Positions 1,903 to 28,940 of a stretch of DNA of 33,862 nt are shown here, piece by piece. This DNA is from Synergistota bacterium. Its GTDB lineage: Bacteria; Synergistota; Synergistia; Synergistales; Aminobacteriaceae. Positions within the stretch are counted from its first letter, which is position 1; the number at the start of each line of letters is the position of its first letter. Location: NCBI GenBank assembly GCA_022704435.1, contig JAKJGK010000012.1:1-33862 (forward strand), in the 5' to 3' direction. Position numbers and translations under genes: made by a program. The notes beneath the pieces were generated by a model that saw only the letters and a program-made list of their open reading frames with translations, did no database searches and had not been told where the DNA came from.

Positions 1903-3393
1903 TCATTCCATCCCCTCCAGAAAACGGGCGATCACGTCCTCGACCGCGCCCGGAGTTGCCCTTCCCCGTGTCTCCTTCATCACCAGGCCGCAGATGAACT
2001 TTCTCTTCTTGCCCTTGAGGTCCCTGCCGCCCATGATCTCCGCGAGCACATCAGGGTTCGCGTCGAGCACGGATTTCGCGGCCAGCTCCAGGTCCTCCTG
2101 CGACAGCCCCCCGTGTGCGCCGCACCTGTCCGTCGCTTCCTGGAGCGACAGCCCCCGGTCCACCATCAACCCGAAGATCTCCTTGGCGACCGTAGTCGAG
2201 GCCCTGCCCTCATCAAGCATGCTCACGAGCAGCCCCAACTCCTCGGGCCTGACGGGGCACTCCTCTATGCCGACTCCCCGTTCGTTCAGAACCCTGAGCA
2301 CCTCGGTGCGAACCCAGTTGGAGGCGCGCAGGGGGGAGGCGCCGGAGCGAACGCACCTCTCGTAGTAGTCCGCGAGGGCCGGCGTCTCGACCAGGACTGC
2401 CGCGTCGACCTCGCTCAGCGAGTAATCGCCGATGAAGCGGGCCTCTCTCTCCCAGGGCATCTCGGGGAGGGAGCTCCGGATCGCGTCCAGCATCTCCCTG
2501 CTCACCTCAATCGGGCCAAGGTCGGGGTCGGGCAGGCAACGGTAGTCCAGGGCGGCCTCCTTGCTTCTCATCGAGGTGGTCACGCCTTCTCCGTCGTTCC
2601 AGTGCCTGGTCTCGCGCTCCAGGGTCCCCCCCGACTCAAGTGTCGCCCTCTGCCTTCGGATCTCGTACTCCAGGGCTCTCTCAACCGAGCGAAGTGAGTT
2701 CATGTTCTTTATCTCGGCCCGGTCCCCCCTGTACAGGATCTCTCCAGTGTCAGCGTTACTTTTCACCACCGAGACATTCGCATCGACGCGCATCGAGCCC
2801 CTGTCCATGTCGCCGTCCGAAACCCCCAGGTAGCGGACGAGCCTTCGAAGCGCGGATACATACTCCCTGGCCTCGCGCGGCGAACCTATGTCCGGGTCGG
2901 ATACTATCTCGGCGAGCGGGACCCCTCCTCTGTTGAAGTCCGCGTAGGACTCCCGCGCCCCCTCCAGCCTGCCGTCCGCGGCGGAGTGCACCAGCTTGCC
3001 CGCATCCTCCTCCAGGTGCAGGCGGGTAATGCCGATCCTCTTCGGCGAGCCCCCGTCACCGCTGATATACAACTCGCCCCTGTCCGCCAGTGGCCGGTCA
3101 TACTGGCTGACCTGGTAGGCCTTGGGCAGATCGGCGTAAAAATAGTGCTTCCTGTGGAAGATGGTGCCGTCGTGTATCTCGCACGACAGCCCCATGGCCG
3201 CCCTGACGGCCAGCTCCACGGCCCTCGCGTTGAGCGTGGGAAGCGCGCCTGGCAGGCCGAGGCACACCGGGCAGACGTTGGTGTTCGGCTCCGCGCCGAT
3301 GTAGTCCGTCGAGCAGGGGCAGAAGAGCTTGGACTCCGTCGCCAGCTGGACGTGGATCTCCAGGCCGATAACCGGGGTGTAGACGTGTCTCAT
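1903..3393 (-). CDS. gatB: Asp-tRNA(Asn)/Glu-tRNA(Gln) amidotransferase subunit B
   Basis: The tRNA-binding and kinase-like subunit of GatCAB. It phosphorylates Glu or Asp on misacylated tRNA so that ammonia can displace the phosphate. The 496 residues are full length. The N-terminus has the family pattern VIGLEIHVQL, a zinc-type Cys set (C25, C27, C41, C44), and conserved HLEEDAGKLVH and IKNMNSLRSVERALEYE blocks. The C-terminus is the helical YqeY-like tail. The start ATG overlaps the gatA stop as ATGA, so translation is probably coupled. GatB looks intact, which contrasts with the altered GatA encoded next to it. Confidence 0.97.
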   Translation of the reverse strand: MRHVYTPVIGLEIHVQLATESKLFCPCSTDYIGAEPNTNVCPVCLGLPGALPTLNARAVELAVRAAMGLSCEIHDGTIFHRKHYFYADLPKAYQVSQYDRPLADRGELYISGDGGSPKRIGITRLHLEEDAGKLVHSAADGRLEGARESYADFNRGGVPLAEIVSDPDIGSPREAREYVSALRRLVRYLGVSDGDMDRGSMRVDANVSVVKSNADTGEILYRGDRAEIKNMNSLRSVERALEYEIRRQRATLESGGTLERETRHWNDGEGVTTSMRSKEAALDYRCLPDPDLGPIEVSREMLDAIRSSLPEMPWEREARFIGDYSLSEVDAAVLVETPALADYYERCVRSGASPLRASNWVRTEVLRVLNERGVGIEECPVRPEELGLLVSMLDEGRASTTVAKEIFGLMVDRGLSLQEATDRCGAHGGLSQEDLELAAKSVLDANPDVLAEIMGGRDLKGKKRKFICGLVMKETRGRATPGAVEDVIARFLEGME

Positions 3394-4886
3394 CGTTCAC
3401 TCCTCCTCTCCCCGGCCTCGTCGCGGGACGCGCGGACTCTCTCGATCGCGGCGGCCGCGGCCAGCAGCCCGGCCTCCCCCCTTCTGGGGGCGATCAGTTG
3501 AACGCCCGCCGGAAGCTCGCCTGCGCCTGCGGCGTTGAACGACAGGGCGGGAAGCCCCGCCAGGCTCGCCTGGACCGTGAAGGACAGGGACAGGCTCATG
3601 CCGAAGTAGTCTCCGTCGAACTCTCCCCTGCGGAAGGCAGTGGTCGGGGTCGTCGGGAGGGCTATGAGATCGCATCCGGCGAGGGCGTCGAGGAGCTCGC
3701 CGACTATCCGGCGCCTGACGTTGGAGGCCCTCAGGTAGCAGTCCTCGTAGCGGTCCGAGCCCAGGATGTAAGTGCCTGCCGCCGCCACCCTCTTCACTTC
3801 CCTGCCGAAGCCCTTGCCCCTGGTCCCGAGGTAGAGCGAGTTCAGCGAGTCAGCCTCCGCAGAGAGGCCGTGGCGCACCCCGTCGAATCGCGCGAGGCTG
3901 GAGCTCGCCTCCGCTGCCAGGAGTACCTGGTAGCACGCCAATCCGTGGTTGAAGGAGAGCGGAAGGTGGACCTCGACGAGCTCCGCGCCGGCCTCCGCCA
4001 GCATGGCCAGGGTTCTGTCGAGGGCTTCGCGGCAAGCGCCCGCGAGGTCGCTTCCTCCCCGCATCTCGGCTACCGTCGCGATCCTCCTGCCCGCCAGGGG
4101 TCTTCTCGCGTCCTTGCCATCCGGCACTGCGACGGCTGCCATATAGTCGGGTCGATCTCCCGGGCTGGACATGGCATCCCTGGGGTCGTGGCCGGATATG
4201 ACCGAAAGGGCCAGGGCGGCATCCTCCACCGTGCGCGACAGTATCCCGAGCTGGTCCATCGACGGGGCAAGGGCTGCGACCCCCCATCGGCTGACAAGGC
4301 CGTAGGTGGGCCTCAGTCCGTAGACCCCGCAGTAAGAGGCGGGCTGCAGCAGGGATCCCCCTGTGTCGCAGGCGAGGGCGAGCGGCGCGTAGCCTGCCGC
4401 GACTGCAGCGGCGCACCCTCCCGCGGATCCCCCAGGGACCCTCCCAGGGTCGCAGGGGTTCGCGGTCGCCCCGAAGGCGGAAGTCTCTGTCGAGCAGCCG
4501 ATGGAGAACTCGTCCATGTTGCCCTTCGCGCAGATGATCGCGCCGGAGGAATCCAGCATCTCCGATGCTGCGGAGTCGTAGGGTGCGATCCACCCCTCGA
4601 GCATCCGGCTTGCGCAGGTCGTAGGCGTCCCGCGGACGCAGATTCCGTCGTCCAGCACCACCGGGACACCCGACAGGGGCCCTGGCCCTTCGCCGCGCGA
4701 GAGGCTTGCGTCCAGGCGCTCGGCCGCGTGCCCCGCCCTCTCCTCGAGGACTGCCAACAGCGCGTGAAGATTCGGCTCCCGCTCCCTCGCGGTCTTCATG
4801 AAGACATCCACCGTCTCTAGCGGCCGGAGTTCTCCCTCGCTCACCCGGCGCGCCGTCTCCGCGGCGGTCATGGATAACTGCATCAC
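3390..4886 (-). CDS. gatA: GatCAB subunit A (amidase family) with altered catalytic site
   Basis: By homology this is the glutaminase subunit that supplies ammonia to GatB. The 498 residues align with GatA along the whole length (MDEFSIGCSTETSAFG, DTGGS, GLRPTYGLVSRWG, SLAGLPALSF). The amidase triad is Lys - cis-Ser - Ser (Lys79, Ser154, Ser178 in the Staphylococcus aureus enzyme, from memory). With the GTG start the positions fall at the same numbers: Ser154 (GGSAGG) and Ser178 (DTGGS) are kept, but residue 79 is Asp (VVLDDGICVRG instead of the usual LKDN). GGSSGG is GGSAGG, GGSIRQP is GGSLLQP, and the Asp of the usual YLxD segment before the NLAG-like motif is Leu434. Glutaminase activity is therefore doubtful. 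The start is GTG 4886 or ATG 4883; both overlap the gatC stop. Confidence 0.93.
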   Translation of the reverse strand: MMQLSMTAAETARRVSEGELRPLETVDVFMKTAREREPNLHALLAVLEERAGHAAERLDASLSRGEGPGPLSGVPVVLDDGICVRGTPTTCASRMLEGWIAPYDSAASEMLDSSGAIICAKGNMDEFSIGCSTETSAFGATANPCDPGRVPGGSAGGCAAAVAAGYAPLALACDTGGSLLQPASYCGVYGLRPTYGLVSRWGVAALAPSMDQLGILSRTVEDAALALSVISGHDPRDAMSSPGDRPDYMAAVAVPDGKDARRPLAGRRIATVAEMRGGSDLAGACREALDRTLAMLAEAGAELVEVHLPLSFNHGLACYQVLLAAEASSSLARFDGVRHGLSAEADSLNSLYLGTRGKGFGREVKRVAAAGTYILGSDRYEDCYLRASNVRRRIVGELLDALAGCDLIALPTTPTTAFRRGEFDGDYFGMSLSLSFTVQASLAGLPALSFNAAGAGELPAGVQLIAPRRGEAGLLAAAAAIERVRASRDEAGERRSER

Positions 4887-5215
4887 AAGGAGCCCTCCTC
4901 GCCCTGCGGATCCAGTATCCTCGGTACGACGAAGAACGACCCGCTCCTCGTGGGCGCCGCATCCAGCACCGCGTCCCTTACGTCCGAGCGCCGAACGGCA
5001 TCCTCCCTGGCCCGCGCGCGGGGCGACCCGAGCGAGGGTTCGCCCCCGGCCGAGACCGCCACCCCCGCCAGCTCGTCGGCGTAGCCCATGAATTCGTTTA
5101 TAAAACCGGCCAGGTCAATCGTCTCCTCCTCGTCCATGAAGATCCTGGCATTGCTTGCGATGCGCGCTGCCAAGGCAATCTCCTGCGCGCCAACACCCTG
5201 TTTTCTCAGTGCCAT
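4883..5215 (-). CDS. gatC: Asp/Glu-tRNA amidotransferase subunit C
   Basis: Small subunit (110 residues) that wraps the GatA-GatB interface. The N-terminus has the helical GatC pattern (IALAARIASNARIF... LAGFINEFMGYADEL) and the C-terminus has the typical FFVVPRIL strand that ends GatC proteins. The middle (about residues 55-85) is longer and more Arg/Ala-rich than usual. The ATG has AGGAGG (5224-5229) eight bases upstream. The 89-base gap to ligA shows no clear promoter or terminator, so gatCAB is probably read through from ligA. Confidence 0.93.
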   Translation of the reverse strand: MALRKQGVGAQEIALAARIASNARIFMDEEETIDLAGFINEFMGYADELAGVAVSAGGEPSLGSPRARAREDAVRRSDVRDAVLDAAPTRSGSFFVVPRILDPQGEEGSL

Positions 5216-5304: not shown

Positions 5305-7395
<2,091 letters not shown>

Positions 7396-8973
7396 CTACT
7401 CCTCGGGCGTCTCCTTTTCCTTCGAGGCCACCGGCCTCATGGTCGGGAAGAGGATGACGTCGCGGATGGACCTGGAGTCGGTCAGGAACATGACCAGCCG
7501 GTCCACCCCTATCCCCAGGCCTCCGGTCGGGGGCAGGCCGGTCTCGATCGCGTTTATGAAGTCCTCGTCGAAGTCGTGCGCCTCGTCGTCGCCGGCCTCT
7601 TTCTTCCTGAGCTGGTCCTCGAACCGCGCCCTCTGGTCAACTGGATCGTTGAGCTCGCTGAAGGCGTTCGCGACCTCCTTGCCGCAGATGAACAGCTCGA
7701 AGCGGCGGGTGTAGTCCGGGTCGGACGGGTCCCGCTTGGCCAGGGGGGAGATCTCCGTCGGGTGACCGGTGACGAAGGTGGGCTGGATGAGCTTCTCCTC
7801 CACGAAGGCCTCGAACATCAGGTTGAGCACCAGGAAACGGCTCTCGTCTCCCTTCAGCTCGACCCCCCGATCCCTGGCGATGCGCCTGGCCTCCTCGTCG
7901 TCATTGATCTCCCTGAAGTCTATCCCGGTGTACTCCCTCACCAGGTCGAGCATCGAGCCCCTCTTGAACGGCCTGGTGAAGTCCAGGTCCACATCCTGGT
8001 AGCGCACGGGTCCCGAGTTGTCCGGGCCGCGGACCGCGGCGGCGGCGTTCCGTATGATCTCCTCCGTCAGGGTCATCATATCCTCGTAGTCGGCGTAGGC
8101 CCAGTAGACCTCCATCGCGGTGAACTCGGGGTTGTGCATGGGGCTCAGACCCTCGTTGCGGAAGTTCTTCCCGAGCTCGTACACCCTGCCGAACATACCC
8201 ACGATAAGCCGCTTGAGGTAGAGCTCGGTGGCGATCCGCAGGTACATCTCCATCCCCAGGGCGTTATGGTAGGTCTTGAAGGGGCGGGCATTGGCCCCCC
8301 CGGCGAGTACGGACAAAATCGGCGTCTCGACCTCCAGGGTCCCGTGGTCCTCCAGTGTCTTGCGTATGGATGAAATGATCCTGGAGCGCTTGCGGAAGGT
8401 GTCGCGCACCTCGGGGTTGGCGATCAGGTCGGTGTAGCGCCTGCGGTAGCGCAGCTCGGTGTCCCTCAGCCCGTGCCACTTCTCGGGCAGAGGGCGAAGG
8501 GCCTTGCTGAGCAGCACCAGCTTCCTGACGTGAAGCGTCAGCTCGCCGCGCTGCGTCCTGAACGGGTGGCCCGCGACCCCGACCCAGTCGCCGGAGTCGA
8601 CCCACTTCTTCACGAAGGAGTAATCCTCCTCCCCCATGGCGTCCAGCTGGAGATAGAGCTGCAGGATGTCGGTCTCGTCGGCCAGGTTGGCGAAGGTGGC
8701 CTTGCCGTGCTTGCGAAGGGTCATCACCCTGCCGGCGGTCACTATCTCCGCGGACTCGTCGATCTCGTCGACGGCGAGATGCTCGAAGTTCCTGCGCACG
8801 TAGTCCAGATGATGCTTCCACTCCCACTTCTCGTGAAGATAGGGGTTGTAACCCTCCTCGGTCAGCAGGCGCTCCAGCTTGTCCCTGCGCTGGCGCACGA
8901 TCTCGTCGCCAGGGCCGCCGTCCGCCTCCTCCACCGGCGCATTCAGGAGCTCCCTTTCATTCTGCGCATCCAC
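7396..8973 (-). CDS. lysS: Lysyl-tRNA synthetase, class II
   Basis: Charges tRNA-Lys. An N-terminal OB-fold anticodon-binding domain (around GRVMTLRKHGKATFANL) precedes the class II core: motif 2 region (GKNFRNEGLSPMHNPEFTAME) and motif 3 (GLGIGVDRLVMFLTDSRSIR). A GTG at 8973 is chosen as start because GGGGAG (8983-8988) lies nine bases upstream, giving 525 residues. An in-frame TTG at 8994 would lie upstream of that ribosome binding site. The gene sits 38 bases after the dus stop, within the coaX-dus-lysS-ligA-gatCAB run. Confidence 0.97.
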   Translation of the reverse strand: MDAQNERELLNAPVEEADGGPGDEIVRQRRDKLERLLTEEGYNPYLHEKWEWKHHLDYVRRNFEHLAVDEIDESAEIVTAGRVMTLRKHGKATFANLADETDILQLYLQLDAMGEEDYSFVKKWVDSGDWVGVAGHPFRTQRGELTLHVRKLVLLSKALRPLPEKWHGLRDTELRYRRRYTDLIANPEVRDTFRKRSRIISSIRKTLEDHGTLEVETPILSVLAGGANARPFKTYHNALGMEMYLRIATELYLKRLIVGMFGRVYELGKNFRNEGLSPMHNPEFTAMEVYWAYADYEDMMTLTEEIIRNAAAAVRGPDNSGPVRYQDVDLDFTRPFKRGSMLDLVREYTGIDFREINDDEEARRIARDRGVELKGDESRFLVLNLMFEAFVEEKLIQPTFVTGHPTEISPLAKRDPSDPDYTRRFELFICGKEVANAFSELNDPVDQRARFEDQLRKKEAGDDEAHDFDEDFINAIETGLPPTGGLGIGVDRLVMFLTDSRSIRDVILFPTMRPVASKEKETPEE

Positions 8974-9011
8974 TATGCAACTCTCCCCTTTCAAAAACCG
9001 TTCGCACCACT

Positions 9012-10022: not shown

Positions 10023-10786
10023 TCCGGGCGGTTCCTGTCGAATATGAGCCTCAGCCCCTCCAGGGCGAGCCACTGGTCCACGCGGGTGATGGTCTCCGAG
10101 AGGGAGGCCATCTCGGGCGAATGCCCCCCGGTCGCGACTACCTCGGTCCTCTGTCCCAACTCCTTCCAGGTCCTCCTTACCAGGCGATCGACGAGCCCGG
10201 CGTTGCCGAACATGATCCCGGCCTGTATGGAGCCGATCGTGTTGTTGCCGATAACGCTCCCTGGAGGTACCAGCGAGACCTGGGGAAGCTTGGCGGTCCT
10301 GCCGAACAGCGCCTCCATCCCGGTGACGAGCCCGGGGGCTATCGCCCCGCCTATGTAGGCGCCGTCCTTGTCCAGGATGTCGAGAGTTATGGCGGTTCCA
10401 AAGTCCACCACTACGAGGGGAGCCCCGTAGCGAGCCCTTCCGGCCACGGAGTTGACCAGCCTGTCCGCGCCGACCTCGTGCCTGGGGGAGTAGGCTATCT
10501 CAAGGCCAAGGTCGAGTTCGGCGGTCACCTTGACCGGGCTGACCCCCAGGTACTCCTCCAGCCCCTCTCGCAGGGCGCTGTCAAGCGACGGAACCACGCT
10601 CGAGAATATCGCGCCGTCGATTCCACCTGCATCAATGCCAGATATCGACAGCAGATTCAAAAGGTATATGCCCAGCTCGTCGGATGTGTGACGCTCCGAC
10701 ATCAAGCGCCAATGCCTCTTCAGCTCCGCACCTTCGTAGATTCCGATCACAGTGGTGGTGTTTCCGACGTCGATTACGAGCAGCAT
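10013..10786 (-). CDS. coaX: Type III pantothenate kinase
   Basis: First step of coenzyme A synthesis, phosphorylating pantothenate. It belongs to the ASKHA fold: phosphate-1 motif IDVGNTTT at residues 5-12, GADRL and VVDFGTAITLDIL in the middle, and GGAIAPGL later, matching CoaX in order. The second ATG at 10786 is preferred because GGAGG lies five bases upstream, giving 257 residues. The ATG at 10798 has no ribosome binding site. First gene of the run ending in gatB, with a promoter about 80 bases upstream. Confidence 0.96.
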   Translation of the reverse strand: MLLVIDVGNTTTVIGIYEGAELKRHWRLMSERHTSDELGIYLLNLLSISGIDAGGIDGAIFSSVVPSLDSALREGLEEYLGVSPVKVTAELDLGLEIAYSPRHEVGADRLVNSVAGRARYGAPLVVVDFGTAITLDILDKDGAYIGGAIAPGLVTGMEALFGRTAKLPQVSLVPPGSVIGNNTIGSIQAGIMFGNAGLVDRLVRRTWKELGQRTEVVATGGHSPEMASLSETITRVDQWLALEGLRLIFDRNRPECP

Positions 10787-10864
10787 GTCTGCCTCCATGT
10801 CTCAATGACCCGGGTTTTCGCGCAGGATGGCCGCGATTCAGAAGTTGAGCCGGGACAACATGAT

Positions 10865-10873
10865 ATTATACCA
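10865..10873 (-). promoter_or_regulatory. Extended -10 promoter for the coaX run
   Basis: Minus-strand TGG-TATAAT gives a perfect -10 box (10865-10870) with the TGn extension (10871-10873). No convincing -35 is present at 16-18 bases, which is usual for extended -10 promoters. It lies about 80 bases before the coaX start, downstream of the hairpins that follow the hydrolase gene. Confidence 0.55.
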
Positions 10874-10921
10874 CTTGCTAGGCGAGCCTTTGCGGCGGAG
10901 GATGTCGCCGCTCTCGGCAGA

Positions 10922-10955
10922 GGAGGGGACGGCGCTGCGGAGCGCCGGCCCCTCC
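10922..10955 (-). terminator. Long GC hairpin downstream of the exported hydrolase
   Basis: Two 7-bp arms (10922-10928 with 10949-10955, 10930-10936 with 10941-10947) form one hairpin with a single mismatch and a four-base loop. It lies between the hydrolase stop and the coaX promoter. Neither side has a T-run, so it is either an atypical terminator or a 3'-end stabilising structure. Confidence 0.45.
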
Positions 10956-10980
10956 CGACAAACCCTTGCTTTCTATTGCA

Positions 10981-11007
10981 TCCCCCCGCCGTCGACGCGC
11001 GGGGGGA
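10981..11007 (-). terminator. Second GC hairpin after the hydrolase stop
   Basis: A perfect 9-bp stem, TCCCCCCGC with GCGGGGGGA (10981-10989 and 10999-11007), and a nine-base loop, starting about 18 bases past the hydrolase stop. It has no T-tract. Together with the hairpin at 10922-10955 it probably marks the end of the hydrolase transcript. Confidence 0.45.
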
Positions 11008-11024
11008 GCGCCGAACAAGGCCGC

Positions 11025-11945
11025 CTACTGCAGGAATGCCAGGACCGCCTCCCTGAACTCCTTGTAGAAGGGTTTCTCCATCATCATGGCGTGAGACGCG
11101 CCGGGCACGACCTTCAGCATGGACTCCTTGTTCTTCAGCGTGCCAAAGGCCTCCTCGCACAGTTCGACCGACACGTACGGATCCTTGTCGCCGACGATGA
11201 GCAGGGTTGGAGCTTCTATGGAGGCCGTGGGTATCAGCCTCTCGTCCGCGCCGACCAGAAGGTCGCGCCGTCCGCCGTTCGGACTCCCCTTTCCGTCATA
11301 CCTCCAGCAGTTGGACAGGAAGGTGGCCACGACGCTCGGCTCCGTGATGTCGTAGTCTATCCGGCCGTCCTCCTTGACCTGGAAGTCCCCCGCCGCATGC
11401 TCCCACGTGTTCTTGTTAAAGGGAGACTTCACCTCGAAAACCCCCAGCCCCGCGACTATGGGGGCATACAGGACAAGCTTCCCGACCTTCTCCGGGTGGT
11501 TCGCGGCAAAGCGACCGCCCGTCACAGTCCCCCAGCTCCACCCCAGGACATCCAGCCTCTGCTGTCCACTGCGCTCAAGCACCAGGTCCGCGGCAGCGGC
11601 GATATCCTCAGCCGCGTAATTCGAGTCCGGCATGTAGCCGTCCTCCACCTCCTGCGAGGACCCGTACCCGGCAATATCCAGCATCCAGACGGTGAACCCG
11701 TTGGAGGCCAGGAATCTAGCCAGGCTGTAGTCGCCGGTATCGACGTCGAACTCGTGCGATGAATAAGTGAGGCCGTGGACCAACAGCAGCTGCCTGTCTC
11801 CGGGCGCCTCCTCCGAGAACATCCGCTGCAAGTGAAGGTTTATCCCGTTCCTCTCGAGCGGCACGACATCAGTGACTATTCCGGCCGCGAAAGCGGCTCC
11901 CCCCTGCAGAAGCACCAGGGCTACCAACAGAATCCTGGCCAACAT
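11025..11945 (-). CDS. Exported alpha/beta hydrolase
   Basis: A 306-residue protein with a hydrophobic signal peptide (residues 1-21, likely cut near AFAA). The fold is alpha/beta hydrolase: oxyanion-hole LLLVHGLTYSS (53-63), nucleophile elbow GWSWG with Ser137, acid in VGDKDPYV (Asp253 or Asp255) and His285 in GASHAMM. Substrate unknown; an esterase, lipase or S33-type peptidase would fit. The start at ATG 11945 is supported by GGGGGG seven bases upstream and by the signal peptide. An in-frame start 16 codons earlier would spoil the leader. The gene has its own strong promoter directly after the comEC stop. Confidence 0.88.
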   Translation of the reverse strand: MLARILLVALVLLQGGAAFAAGIVTDVVPLERNGINLHLQRMFSEEAPGDRQLLLVHGLTYSSHEFDVDTGDYSLARFLASNGFTVWMLDIAGYGSSQEVEDGYMPDSNYAAEDIAAAADLVLERSGQQRLDVLGWSWGTVTGGRFAANHPEKVGKLVLYAPIVAGLGVFEVKSPFNKNTWEHAAGDFQVKEDGRIDYDITEPSVVATFLSNCWRYDGKGSPNGGRRDLLVGADERLIPTASIEAPTLLIVGDKDPYVSVELCEEAFGTLKNKESMLKVVPGASHAMMMEKPFYKEFREAVLAFLQ

Positions 11946-12020
11946 TGCACAACCCCCCTGTTTTGGATTTGAGCCTGTCCCGCACGGAAGCAACCTCGGG
12001 CCGGGCTGAACTGCGTCACA

Positions 12021-27111: not shown

Positions 27112-27588
27112 CTACAGGGTGAATTTACTGAACTGCGACCTGATGCCGCTGACCGCCTCGGCGAGCTTTTCGGGATCGAGCACCATCTCCATCATGCTGA
27201 TCTGCTCTTCCCATGCCGCCGCGTCGCACTCGTCCCTGATCTCCTGCTCGAACACGTGATACACTGCGAGTCCAGACTGGACTCCGGCCAATGGTCCTGC
27301 AAATGTAGGGTCTCCGTTGCTCACCGTCTCGGCGTAGATCTCCGCGCCTTCCGCATCGGACGATCCCAAGACGACGACCAGGTTCTCCGGCCCGTACTTC
27401 TCAGCAGCGTCCTTGATACGCTGCTGATTTTGCAGATCCATGGCACCTGCGGCGGTTCATACGAAGCACTCGGTGACCGAGAAGACGACCTCGGCGCCGC
27501 TATCTTTGAGACACGCTTCCATAGCGGGGCCGGGAACGCCGTCGCGTTCACCAAGCAGGAGGATTTTCTTTCCTGCCAGCTTTCCCAT
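27112..27588 (-). CDS. grdA: Glycine reductase selenoprotein A
   Basis: Small selenoprotein that receives the carboxymethyl group from GrdB as Se-carboxymethyl-selenocysteine and passes it to component C; it is reduced again by thioredoxin. The 158 codons include one in-frame TGA (27457-27459) at codon 44, in [14 protein letters not shown], the redox CxxU site. Sec at 44 agrees with the position recalled for characterised GrdA. N-terminus [20 protein letters not shown] and later [20 protein letters not shown] match the family. The ATG at 27588 has GGAGGT eight bases upstream, preceded by an A/T-rich stretch (27601-27625) that may aid ribosome loading. Reading only after the TGA would give a false 109-residue protein. 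Confidence 0.97.
27432..27459 (-). promoter_or_regulatory. Selenocysteine UGA and candidate SECIS of grdA
   Basis: Six bases after the UGA, GCAGGT (27445-27450) pairs with ATCTGC (27432-27437, one G-U) around a seven-base loop GCCATGG. No GGU apical loop is formed, so it differs from the grdB element. The Sec assignment is firm from homology; this fold is a candidate only. Confidence 0.5.
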
Positions 27589-27653
27589 GCTCTTGCACCT
27601 CCAAGAAAATTATTTTTGTTATTTAGTCGTTGCCTGTCGTCAGTGCAACCGGA

Positions 27654-28940
27654 TCAGATGGTGTAAGCGCCCAGCCTGGTGAAGCCCAGTTCGCTGGTCG
27701 CTCCGATTATCGCCTGGAGCTCGACCGTGATGGTCCCGTCCGCGGCCAGCGAGCCCTGCCAGCCTCCGGCGATGACGTTGGCCTCCTCGGGCACGCCTAT
27801 GACCCTGTCCATCGGTGGAAGGACCACGACCTCGTTGGCGTTACCTGCGGTTACGCAGGCGTCGCCCTCCGGGCAGGAGTCCGCCAGAGACTGGCTCGCG
27901 CCGTCCTGGCCGGCGTACTCGTCCGTCAGCAGGGTGGTCTTGATGCCGGCGCGCTCCGCCTTCCAGCAGTTCATCACCAGGTCCGCGTCCGGGTTGCCGA
28001 AGCCCTCCTCGGAGATCAGCAGACCCTCCACGCCCAGCGTCTTCGCGAGGTTGATCGAATAGGAGGAGCTCCTCTTCTTGTCGGCCAGCGTGACGTTCTC
28101 GTTGGTGATTATGCAGCCCAGGAAGTTGAAGTCCTTGCCGTGGCGTTTGAACATGTTGTGGATGATCGGGTTGTTCTGATGAGAGTAGGTATTGTTCTTG
28201 TCGCAGGCGGACACGCAGTTGCCGGAGACAATGGCGCCGTCCATCACCTCGGTCGGGTTGATCAGGGTGGGCAGGGTCTTCTTCGCGTCCACACCGTACA
28301 CGTAGGTGTCGTGAAGCAGCCCCTGCGACTGGAGCATGTACAGGTAGGCGACCTTGGGCAGCCCGGGATGCGCGTGCATCGCGTCCTTTAGCGGCAGAGT
28401 CTCGTAAGTCTCGACGACGTCCGCCCTGGTTCCGACGCACTTGCCCGCCAGGTAGGCGGCGGTCTTCAGGCCGGCCATCCGGCAGGCCGTCTCGTAGTCG
28501 TGCTTCTCTATTCCCTCCACGTTCTCGAGGATTACCACGACGTTGCAGGTGCCCGAGTAGGGCGTGTACTCGGCCCCCGGCCCCTTCATATCTATGATGC
28601 CCTCCTGGAAGCGGACTATCTTGCCGGTGGTCACGACCGCAGCGCCGGACAGGACCAGGGTCTTGCCCTCGCCGACGGTGTCCACGTCCGAGACCATTCC
28701 GGGGAACACTCCCCCTGGTCCCTCCATCTTGAACCTGGGCTCGATCACGTCCTTGACCGGCAGGATGCGCACGCTCTCCCCCGGCACGGCGAAGTCGACG
28801 TCTACCCTGGCGAGCCGCTCGTCGCCGGAGAGCAGCGATAGCAGCTCCTGCTTGTTGACCGTCAGCACTCCGTCCTTGACAGCGGTCCTCTCTCCCCAGG
28901 CCAGCTTGTTCACTTTTACCTTGTGCAGCTCAAGTTTCAT
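27654..28940 (-). CDS. grdE: Glycine reductase component B, pyruvoyl proprotein
   Basis: Proprotein that cleaves itself into two subunits; the new N-terminus of the C-terminal part becomes a pyruvoyl group that forms a Schiff base with glycine. The processing cysteine is Cys242 in IVSGNCVSACDKNN, followed by SHQNNPIIHNMFKRHGKDF. Length of 428 residues is typical. The N-terminus contains MEGPGGVFPGMVSDVDTVG and the C-terminus GASQSLADSC and ELGFTRLGAYTI. The ATG has GGGGGGAG upstream. Third gene of the operon, 36 bases after trxA and 65 before grdA. Confidence 0.97.
   Translation of the reverse strand: MKLELHKVKVNKLAWGERTAVKDGVLTVNKQELLSLLSGDERLARVDVDFAVPGESVRILPVKDVIEPRFKMEGPGGVFPGMVSDVDTVGEGKTLVLSGAAVVTTGKIVRFQEGIIDMKGPGAEYTPYSGTCNVVVILENVEGIEKHDYETACRMAGLKTAAYLAGKCVGTRADVVETYETLPLKDAMHAHPGLPKVAYLYMLQSQGLLHDTYVYGVDAKKTLPTLINPTEVMDGAIVSGNCVSACDKNNTYSHQNNPIIHNMFKRHGKDFNFLGCIITNENVTLADKKRSSSYSINLAKTLGVEGLLISEEGFGNPDADLVMNCWKAERAGIKTTLLTDEYAGQDGASQSLADSCPEGDACVTAGNANEVVVLPPMDRVIGVPEEANVIAGGWQGSLAADGTITVELQAIIGATSELGFTRLGAYTI

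Follow-up and report, generated by a model that had tools for sequence, protein, structure and literature searches.

What does a GatCAB amidotransferase do when its glutaminase subunit, GatA, no longer has a catalytic lysine that is close to invariant in this protein? The question is raised by a stretch of 33,862 nucleotides from a Synergistota bacterium of the Aminobacteriaceae (GenBank assembly GCA_022704435.1, contig JAKJGK010000012.1), which carries gatC, gatA and gatB and is called the window, at its full length, below. The answer preferred here, with a probability of roughly 0.6, is that this GatCAB is fed by ammonia, that GatA is a pseudo-glutaminase and that the likely job of the complex is tRNA-dependent asparagine synthesis. 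A preliminary description of the window had proposed the loss of glutamine hydrolysis, the use of free ammonia and a GatA that remains as a scaffold; as a whole, that interpretation is partly supported.

Loss of the glutaminase site in GatA

Residue equivalence was set by alignment to the solved GatA of Staphylococcus aureus. The Ser-cisSer-Lys triad of the window GatA is incomplete: both serines, Ser154 and Ser178, are kept, as first described, and K79 is Asp (D79). The other three substitutions named at the outset are likewise present on the minus strand, the Ser after S154 being A155, the Arg after S178 being L180 and D425 being L434, where the YLxD segment reads SLSL. A fifth loss, R358 to V367, had been overlooked. 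The structure of the yeast GatFAB complex gives the roles of three equivalent residues: its Arg and Asp grip the glutamine ligand, and its Lys is the third member of the Ser-cisSer-Lys site (PMC4027206). Judged from these residues, loss of the glutaminase function, and hence the early claim that glutamine hydrolysis is gone, is strongly supported.

The overall fold is kept. The window GatA matches PF01425 at 388 bits (cut-off 27), and its predicted structure (predicted local distance difference test score 93) is closest in the PDB to GatA 3h0l, with a template modelling (TM) score of 0.91, and also matches 2df4 and 4wj3. Against the more specific family TIGR00132, it scores 411 bits, below the curated 481, as does GatA of the sister species G002 (421 bits), versus 551 bits for the canonical sibling in G001.

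The possibility that the changes arose from sequencing error or faulty local assembly is rejected, because the independent species G002 carries the same substitutions in a GatA (L004/L091) that is 62% identical overall to that of the window. The preliminary description had dismissed error on the ground that several bases change in each codon; the conclusion holds, but that ground is unsafe, as S155A and R180L each lie one base from likely codons.

Distribution of the losses

The genome of the window (G000) is a draft of 94% completeness in 236 contigs; G002 (97%) and a third genome, G007 (95%), are also drafts. Single absences in G000 are therefore weak, and absences common to all three are stronger, though still those of drafts. 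The alignment contains 128 other GatA rows, drawn from Synergistota and many further phyla, and some genes are represented by more than one overlapping row. Of these 128 rows, 125 have Lys79, two have Asp and are the copies of the window itself and of G002, and one is a fragment; Arg180 and R367 are conserved in 125 of 128 and D434 in 124 of 128. Another ten GatA genes, all of genomes in which glutamine synthetase was not matched, are canonical too. Among the relatives, to which a check for clade-wide substitutions had been directed, the full set occurs in G000 and G002 only, G001 and G003 of the same genus having a canonical GatA. The two affected species count as one evolutionary event. Horizontal gain of an odd GatA is not supported, since the operon position is the same and GatB and LysS also pair G000 with G002. 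G004 (82% complete) gave no GatA match, only two amidase relatives.

A second, canonical gatA, proposed at the outset as a finding that could overturn the interpretation, was not found in G000, and G000 and G002 each have one gatA. The sole further amidase-family protein in G000, encoded on contig C34, was rejected as a second GatA: it has an intact Lys-Ser-Ser motif and homologues in G003 and G004, but is 31% identical to GatA and lies elsewhere in the genome.

G007 is a partial case, in which GatA has the Lys but lacks Asp434, and gatB homology next to gatA is spread over three separate frames (L096:3320-4869, contig C183), which is either decay or an assembly error. This genome, which has no match to glutamine synthetase, to a GuaA glutaminase domain or to a class II glutaminase, may be a second lineage that is losing GatCAB, or may contain assembly errors. 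Elsewhere, an otherwise canonical GatA in G088 (contig C10, L335:2899-4329) has its nucleophile Ser178 read as Phe (GGFIRQP), which may reflect either an error in the sequence or inactivation at an early stage, and G091 has two canonical gatA genes ~8 kb apart (contig C5, L334:2751-4124 and 10542-11972).

Selection after the loss

The site is dead in G000 and G002 alike, so that the divergence between them (synonymous divergence, dS, of ~1) is a measure of selection after the loss. The ratio of nonsynonymous to synonymous divergence (dN/dS) is 0.28 for GatA (bootstrap 0.21-0.35), 0.18 for GatB, 0.38 for GatC, 0.15 for LigA and 0.07 for LysS; these are Nei-Gojobori counting estimates with dS near saturation, for which contrasts are more meaningful than values. 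GatA has been under purifying selection since the two species split. Its most constrained part is the former catalytic core, residues 146-195, where dN/dS is 0.06, compared with 0.11-0.13 in pairs of active enzymes at similar divergence. For residues 70-240 the ratio is 0.12 (0.07-0.20 in active pairs at similar divergence), and for residues 301-490 it is 0.27 versus 0.10-0.15 in active pairs. The positions that grip glutamine drift between the two species, with V or M at 367, S or R at 431 and L or Q at 434.

At 37 GatA sites that are invariant in the family, G000 and G002 have the identical new residue, and their common stem in the GatA tree carries a burst of 0.76 changes per site versus 0.25 for GatB and 0.13 for LysS. 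All three genes are open, adjacent and in order in both species after a dS of ~1. This pattern fits a site that was rebuilt and then held, rather than abandoned. The term scaffold, as used in the preliminary description, is incomplete in this respect, as selection constrains the rebuilt catalytic core more strongly than the remainder of GatA.

GatB and GatC

GatB and GatC had been described as intact, which is true in part. The GatB residues corresponding to yeast E34, H36, E156, E186, N230 and S232, which have roles in ATP and Mg binding (PMC4027206), are kept in the window and in G002, and the YRYFPxPDLPP motif of GatB is altered. GatC is short and falls below its family cut-off. The window would thus hold a retained, selected and catalytically dead glutaminase together with a GatB synthase site that is predicted to be intact.

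Synthetases, asparagine and the glutamine economy

The preliminary description had called for a search for glnS and asnS, and both products, glutaminyl-tRNA synthetase (GlnRS, 730 bits) and asparaginyl-tRNA synthetase (AsnRS, 475 bits), were found in G000; both are also present in G002 by family models, and domain matches place them in 10 of 10 genomes tested. Charging of tRNA-Gln and tRNA-Asn therefore does not as such require GatCAB, and the idea that GatCAB is essential through a missing GlnRS or AsnRS is rejected. No full-length AsnB match was obtained in G000 or G002. The tRNA-synt_2 proteins number three only (AspRS, AsnRS and LysRS), with no dedicated search made for AsnA; a single AspRS, of bacterial type, is present in G000. 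As a separate observation, the single tRNA-synt_1c match in G000 is GlnRS and no match to glutamyl-tRNA synthetase (GluRS) was obtained there, probably owing to a draft gap, because G002 has gltX ~14 kb from glnS.

The search for glutamine synthetase was negative in G000, G002 and G007 and positive in 10 of 10 other close relatives tested; across the phylum, a match is missing from 20 of 188 genomes and, among the good genomes, from 7 of 116. All genomes with a degraded GatA belong to this negative set. Nor was there a match to CarA or to a GlmS domain in G000, G002 or G007, and the class II glutaminase domain is absent from the matches of G000 and G007 and represented in G002 by PurF only. 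In the 1.1 Mb of G002 that were read, glmS, carA, carB and glutamine synthetase were not found. In G000 and G007, no GlmS or PurF glutaminase domain was matched that would account for their glucosamine-6-phosphate and purines.

The GMP synthetase (GuaA) of G002 (L256:1363-2580, contig C73) has lost the glutaminase Cys, with GIGPGMH in place of GICYGMQ and APTSGGRV in place of MSHGDxV, but its ATP-pyrophosphatase motif is intact; the gene is cut off by the end of the contig. By its motifs, this is a second dead glutaminase. The early suggestion that ammonia is used is thus supported indirectly, by the missing glutamine synthetase, CarA and GlmS matches, the apparently dead GuaA of G002 and the reductase genes of the window (see below).

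Proposed function and alternatives

In the reaction proposed here, GatA would keep its fold and its partners and would no longer hold or hydrolyse glutamine, while GatCAB most likely still phosphorylates and amidates misacylated tRNA. Free ammonia would enter via the remodelled GatA pocket and pass through the tunnel to GatB. The likely task is conversion of Asp-tRNA-Asn to Asn-tRNA-Asn, because tRNA-Gln and tRNA-Asn are already provided for by GlnRS and AsnRS and the search for a full-length AsnB gave no match. Yeast GatFAB can use ammonium chloride in place of glutamine (PMC4027206); therefore, the ammonia chemistry needs no invention. Glutaminase chemistry may have become dispensable after loss of glutamine synthetase, during fermentation of amino acids that releases ammonia. 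Ammonia is the nitrogen donor that we infer from these sequences, and an ammonia-fed GatCAB with a pseudo-glutaminase is the most economical reading.

Several observations weigh against it. Shared ancestry of the 37 changes, combined with constraint on the structural core, could give the same selection pattern. GatA, GatB and GatC evolve somewhat faster than in relatives, and this, with the altered YRYFPxPDLPP motif of GatB, could mean that the whole complex is weakening. The RDLGG motif of AspRS is the same in glutaminase-dead and active species, so that a non-discriminating AspRS is not shown by the motif, and neither tRNA-Asn, sought for a U1-A72 identity pair, nor tRNA-Gln was found in the 1.1 Mb (half) of G002 that were read. 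PurF and PyrG of G002 keep the glutaminase Cys and GuaA of G000 is intact; therefore, glutamine is still used by some enzymes, only less. Finally, 13 other genomes without a glutamine synthetase match keep a canonical GatA. Loss of glutamine synthetase alone is therefore rejected as a sufficient explanation of GatA decay, and looks permissive rather than sufficient.

A broader proposal is tentative: in a fermenter that releases ammonia, loss of glutamine synthetase may have driven a shift from glutamine to free ammonia across several amidotransferases, with GatA rebuilt, and not only broken, as a selected entry port for ammonium that bears the acidic Asp79 at the old Lys position and feeds the tunnel. 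The G002 GuaA and the decaying GatCAB of G007 would then be independent steps in the same direction.

Among the alternatives, the strongest, though unlikely, is that GatCAB is vestigial and in slow decay, being dispensable where GlnRS and AsnRS are present, the glutaminase residues going first and the rest following. The two synthetases in all ten genomes tested, the three-frame gatB and the missing Asp434 of G007, the several genomes without a gatA match (e.g., G065, at 100% completeness) and the raised dN/dS of GatA and GatC are all consistent with decay; yet the three genes remain open, adjacent and ordered in both species, dN/dS is well below 1 and falls to 0.06 in the old core, and identical new residues are kept at 37 sites. 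Slightly less probable again is that the complex has been repurposed, the remodelled pocket (Asp79, Gly81, Ala155, Cys158, Ala172, Cys173 and Leu180) binding something else or the complex having a role other than amidation, such as binding of tRNA or AspRS. Such a change would suit the stem-branch burst of 0.76 changes per site followed by high conservation of the former catalytic core, and recruitment of a GatA-like protein has a precedent in the s-triazine hydrolase AtzE, which pairs with a GatC-like protein and whose fold matches closely (6c62). However, the GatB ATP/Mg residues, which both species retain, would be expected to persist only where the tRNA-bound acid is still phosphorylated, and the operon contains no new partner gene. 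It is improbable that ammonia is supplied in trans by a separate glutaminase or asparaginase, or that GatA hydrolyses an amide by altered chemistry through Ser154 and Ser178, since the retained serines and the intact Lys-Ser-Ser motif of the C34 protein, which speak for this, are set against the 31% identity and distant location of that protein, its homologues in G003 and G004, the free drift of glutamine-holding positions (V/M at 367, L/Q at 434) and the fact that we know of no amidase-signature mechanism without Lys.

Comparison with known systems

The window resembles the GatCAB loci of S. aureus (2df4) and Aquifex aeolicus (3h0l) in its adjacent gatC-gatA-gatB, its GatA fold (TM 0.91), both triad serines and the GatB ATP/Mg residues. 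It differs from them in lacking the catalytic Lys, the following Ser, Arg180, R358 and D425, in its diverged GatC and GatB YRYFPxPDLPP motif, and in a GatA below the TIGR00132 cut-off.

Carbamoyl phosphate synthetase I (CPS I) keeps an inactive glutaminase domain. This enzyme is ammonia-dependent (PMC6022934) and, like the window GatCAB if the latter uses ammonia, represents a glutamine amidotransferase lineage that turned ammonia-only. CPS I is, however, a metazoan urea-cycle enzyme with a class I (Cys) glutaminase and is activated by N-acetylglutamate, whereas the window enzyme is an amidase-signature Ser enzyme that acts on tRNA. NAD synthetases form one family whose nitrogen donor, glutamine or ammonia, differs between lineages (PMC3376133), but the ammonia users there lack the glutaminase domain, whereas the window keeps a dead one under selection. 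Bdellovibrio has AsnRS, GlnRS and GatCAB and no Asn synthetase, and its GatCAB is proposed to make Asn on tRNA (PMC4206432). The window species likewise combines both direct synthetases with GatCAB and has no full-length AsnB match; the AspRS of Bdellovibrio was shown to be non-discriminating, whereas the AspRS of the window species has an RDLGG motif that is the same in all species compared.

In AtzE/AtzG (6c62), as may be the case in the window, a GatA-fold protein took on another role and stayed with a GatC-like partner. AtzE itself is an active hydrolase that has its triad, whereas the window GatA lacks Lys79 and GatB is retained.

A limited search of the open literature found no earlier report of such a GatA. 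If the preferred reading is true, a selected, glutaminase-dead GatCAB would show that the ammonia tunnel and GatA shell have importance even where glutamine plays no part, and would provide a natural separation-of-function enzyme for coupling between the glutaminase and kinase sites. The chemistry of a translation enzyme would also be tied to the cellular nitrogen economy, glutamine synthetase not being found in the same lineages.

Locus and gene order

Table 1. Features of the window that bear on GatCAB and on ammonia release
Feature	Position	Strand	Remark
gatB, kinase/transamidase subunit	1903..3393	-	ATP/Mg motifs GLEIH, LEEDAGK, EIVS, KNMNS kept
gatB motif DYRCLPDPDLGP	2512..2547	-	family consensus DYRYFPxPDLPP; Y286C, F287L, P293G, shared in kind with G002
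gatA, pseudo-glutaminase subunit (putative), 498 aa	3390..4886	-	start GTG or next codon ATG
gatA codon 434, Gln-binding Asp (S. aureus D425) to Leu	3585..3587	-	Gln in G002
gatA codon 367, Gln carboxylate-binding Arg (S. aureus R358) to Val	3786..3788	-	Met in G002
gatA codon 180, Arg of GGSIRQP to Leu (GGSLLQP)	4347..4349	-	
gatA codon 178, nucleophile Ser kept	4353..4355	-	
gatA codon 155, second Ser of GGSSGG to Ala (GGSAGG)	4422..4424	-	
gatA codon 154, cis-Ser kept	4425..4427	-	
gatA codon 79, catalytic Lys to Asp (GAC; VVLDDGI)	4650..4652	-	common to G002
gatC, short and diverged	4883..5215	-	35 bits versus cut-off 47
ligA-like open reading frame	5305..7395	-	DNA ligase by sequence inspection; upstream of gatC
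lysS	7396..8994	-	first gene of conserved order
AgcS amino acid carrier	21404..22798	-	
Glycine/sarcosine reductase genes	23018..28940	-	component C alpha and beta, GRDB selenoprotein B, GrdG-like
Component C genes of this cluster	23018-25714		
GRDB, selenoprotein B part	26048-27094		
GrdG-like gene	27654-28940		

The gene order in the window is lysS-ligA-gatC-gatA-gatB, and the order from lysS to gatCAB is kept in G002 and G003. The three gat genes are adjacent with overlapping reading frames, and the order gatC-gatA-gatB is also found in relatives. Further along the window, the glycine/sarcosine reductase genes and the amino acid carrier fit a fermentation that releases ammonia.

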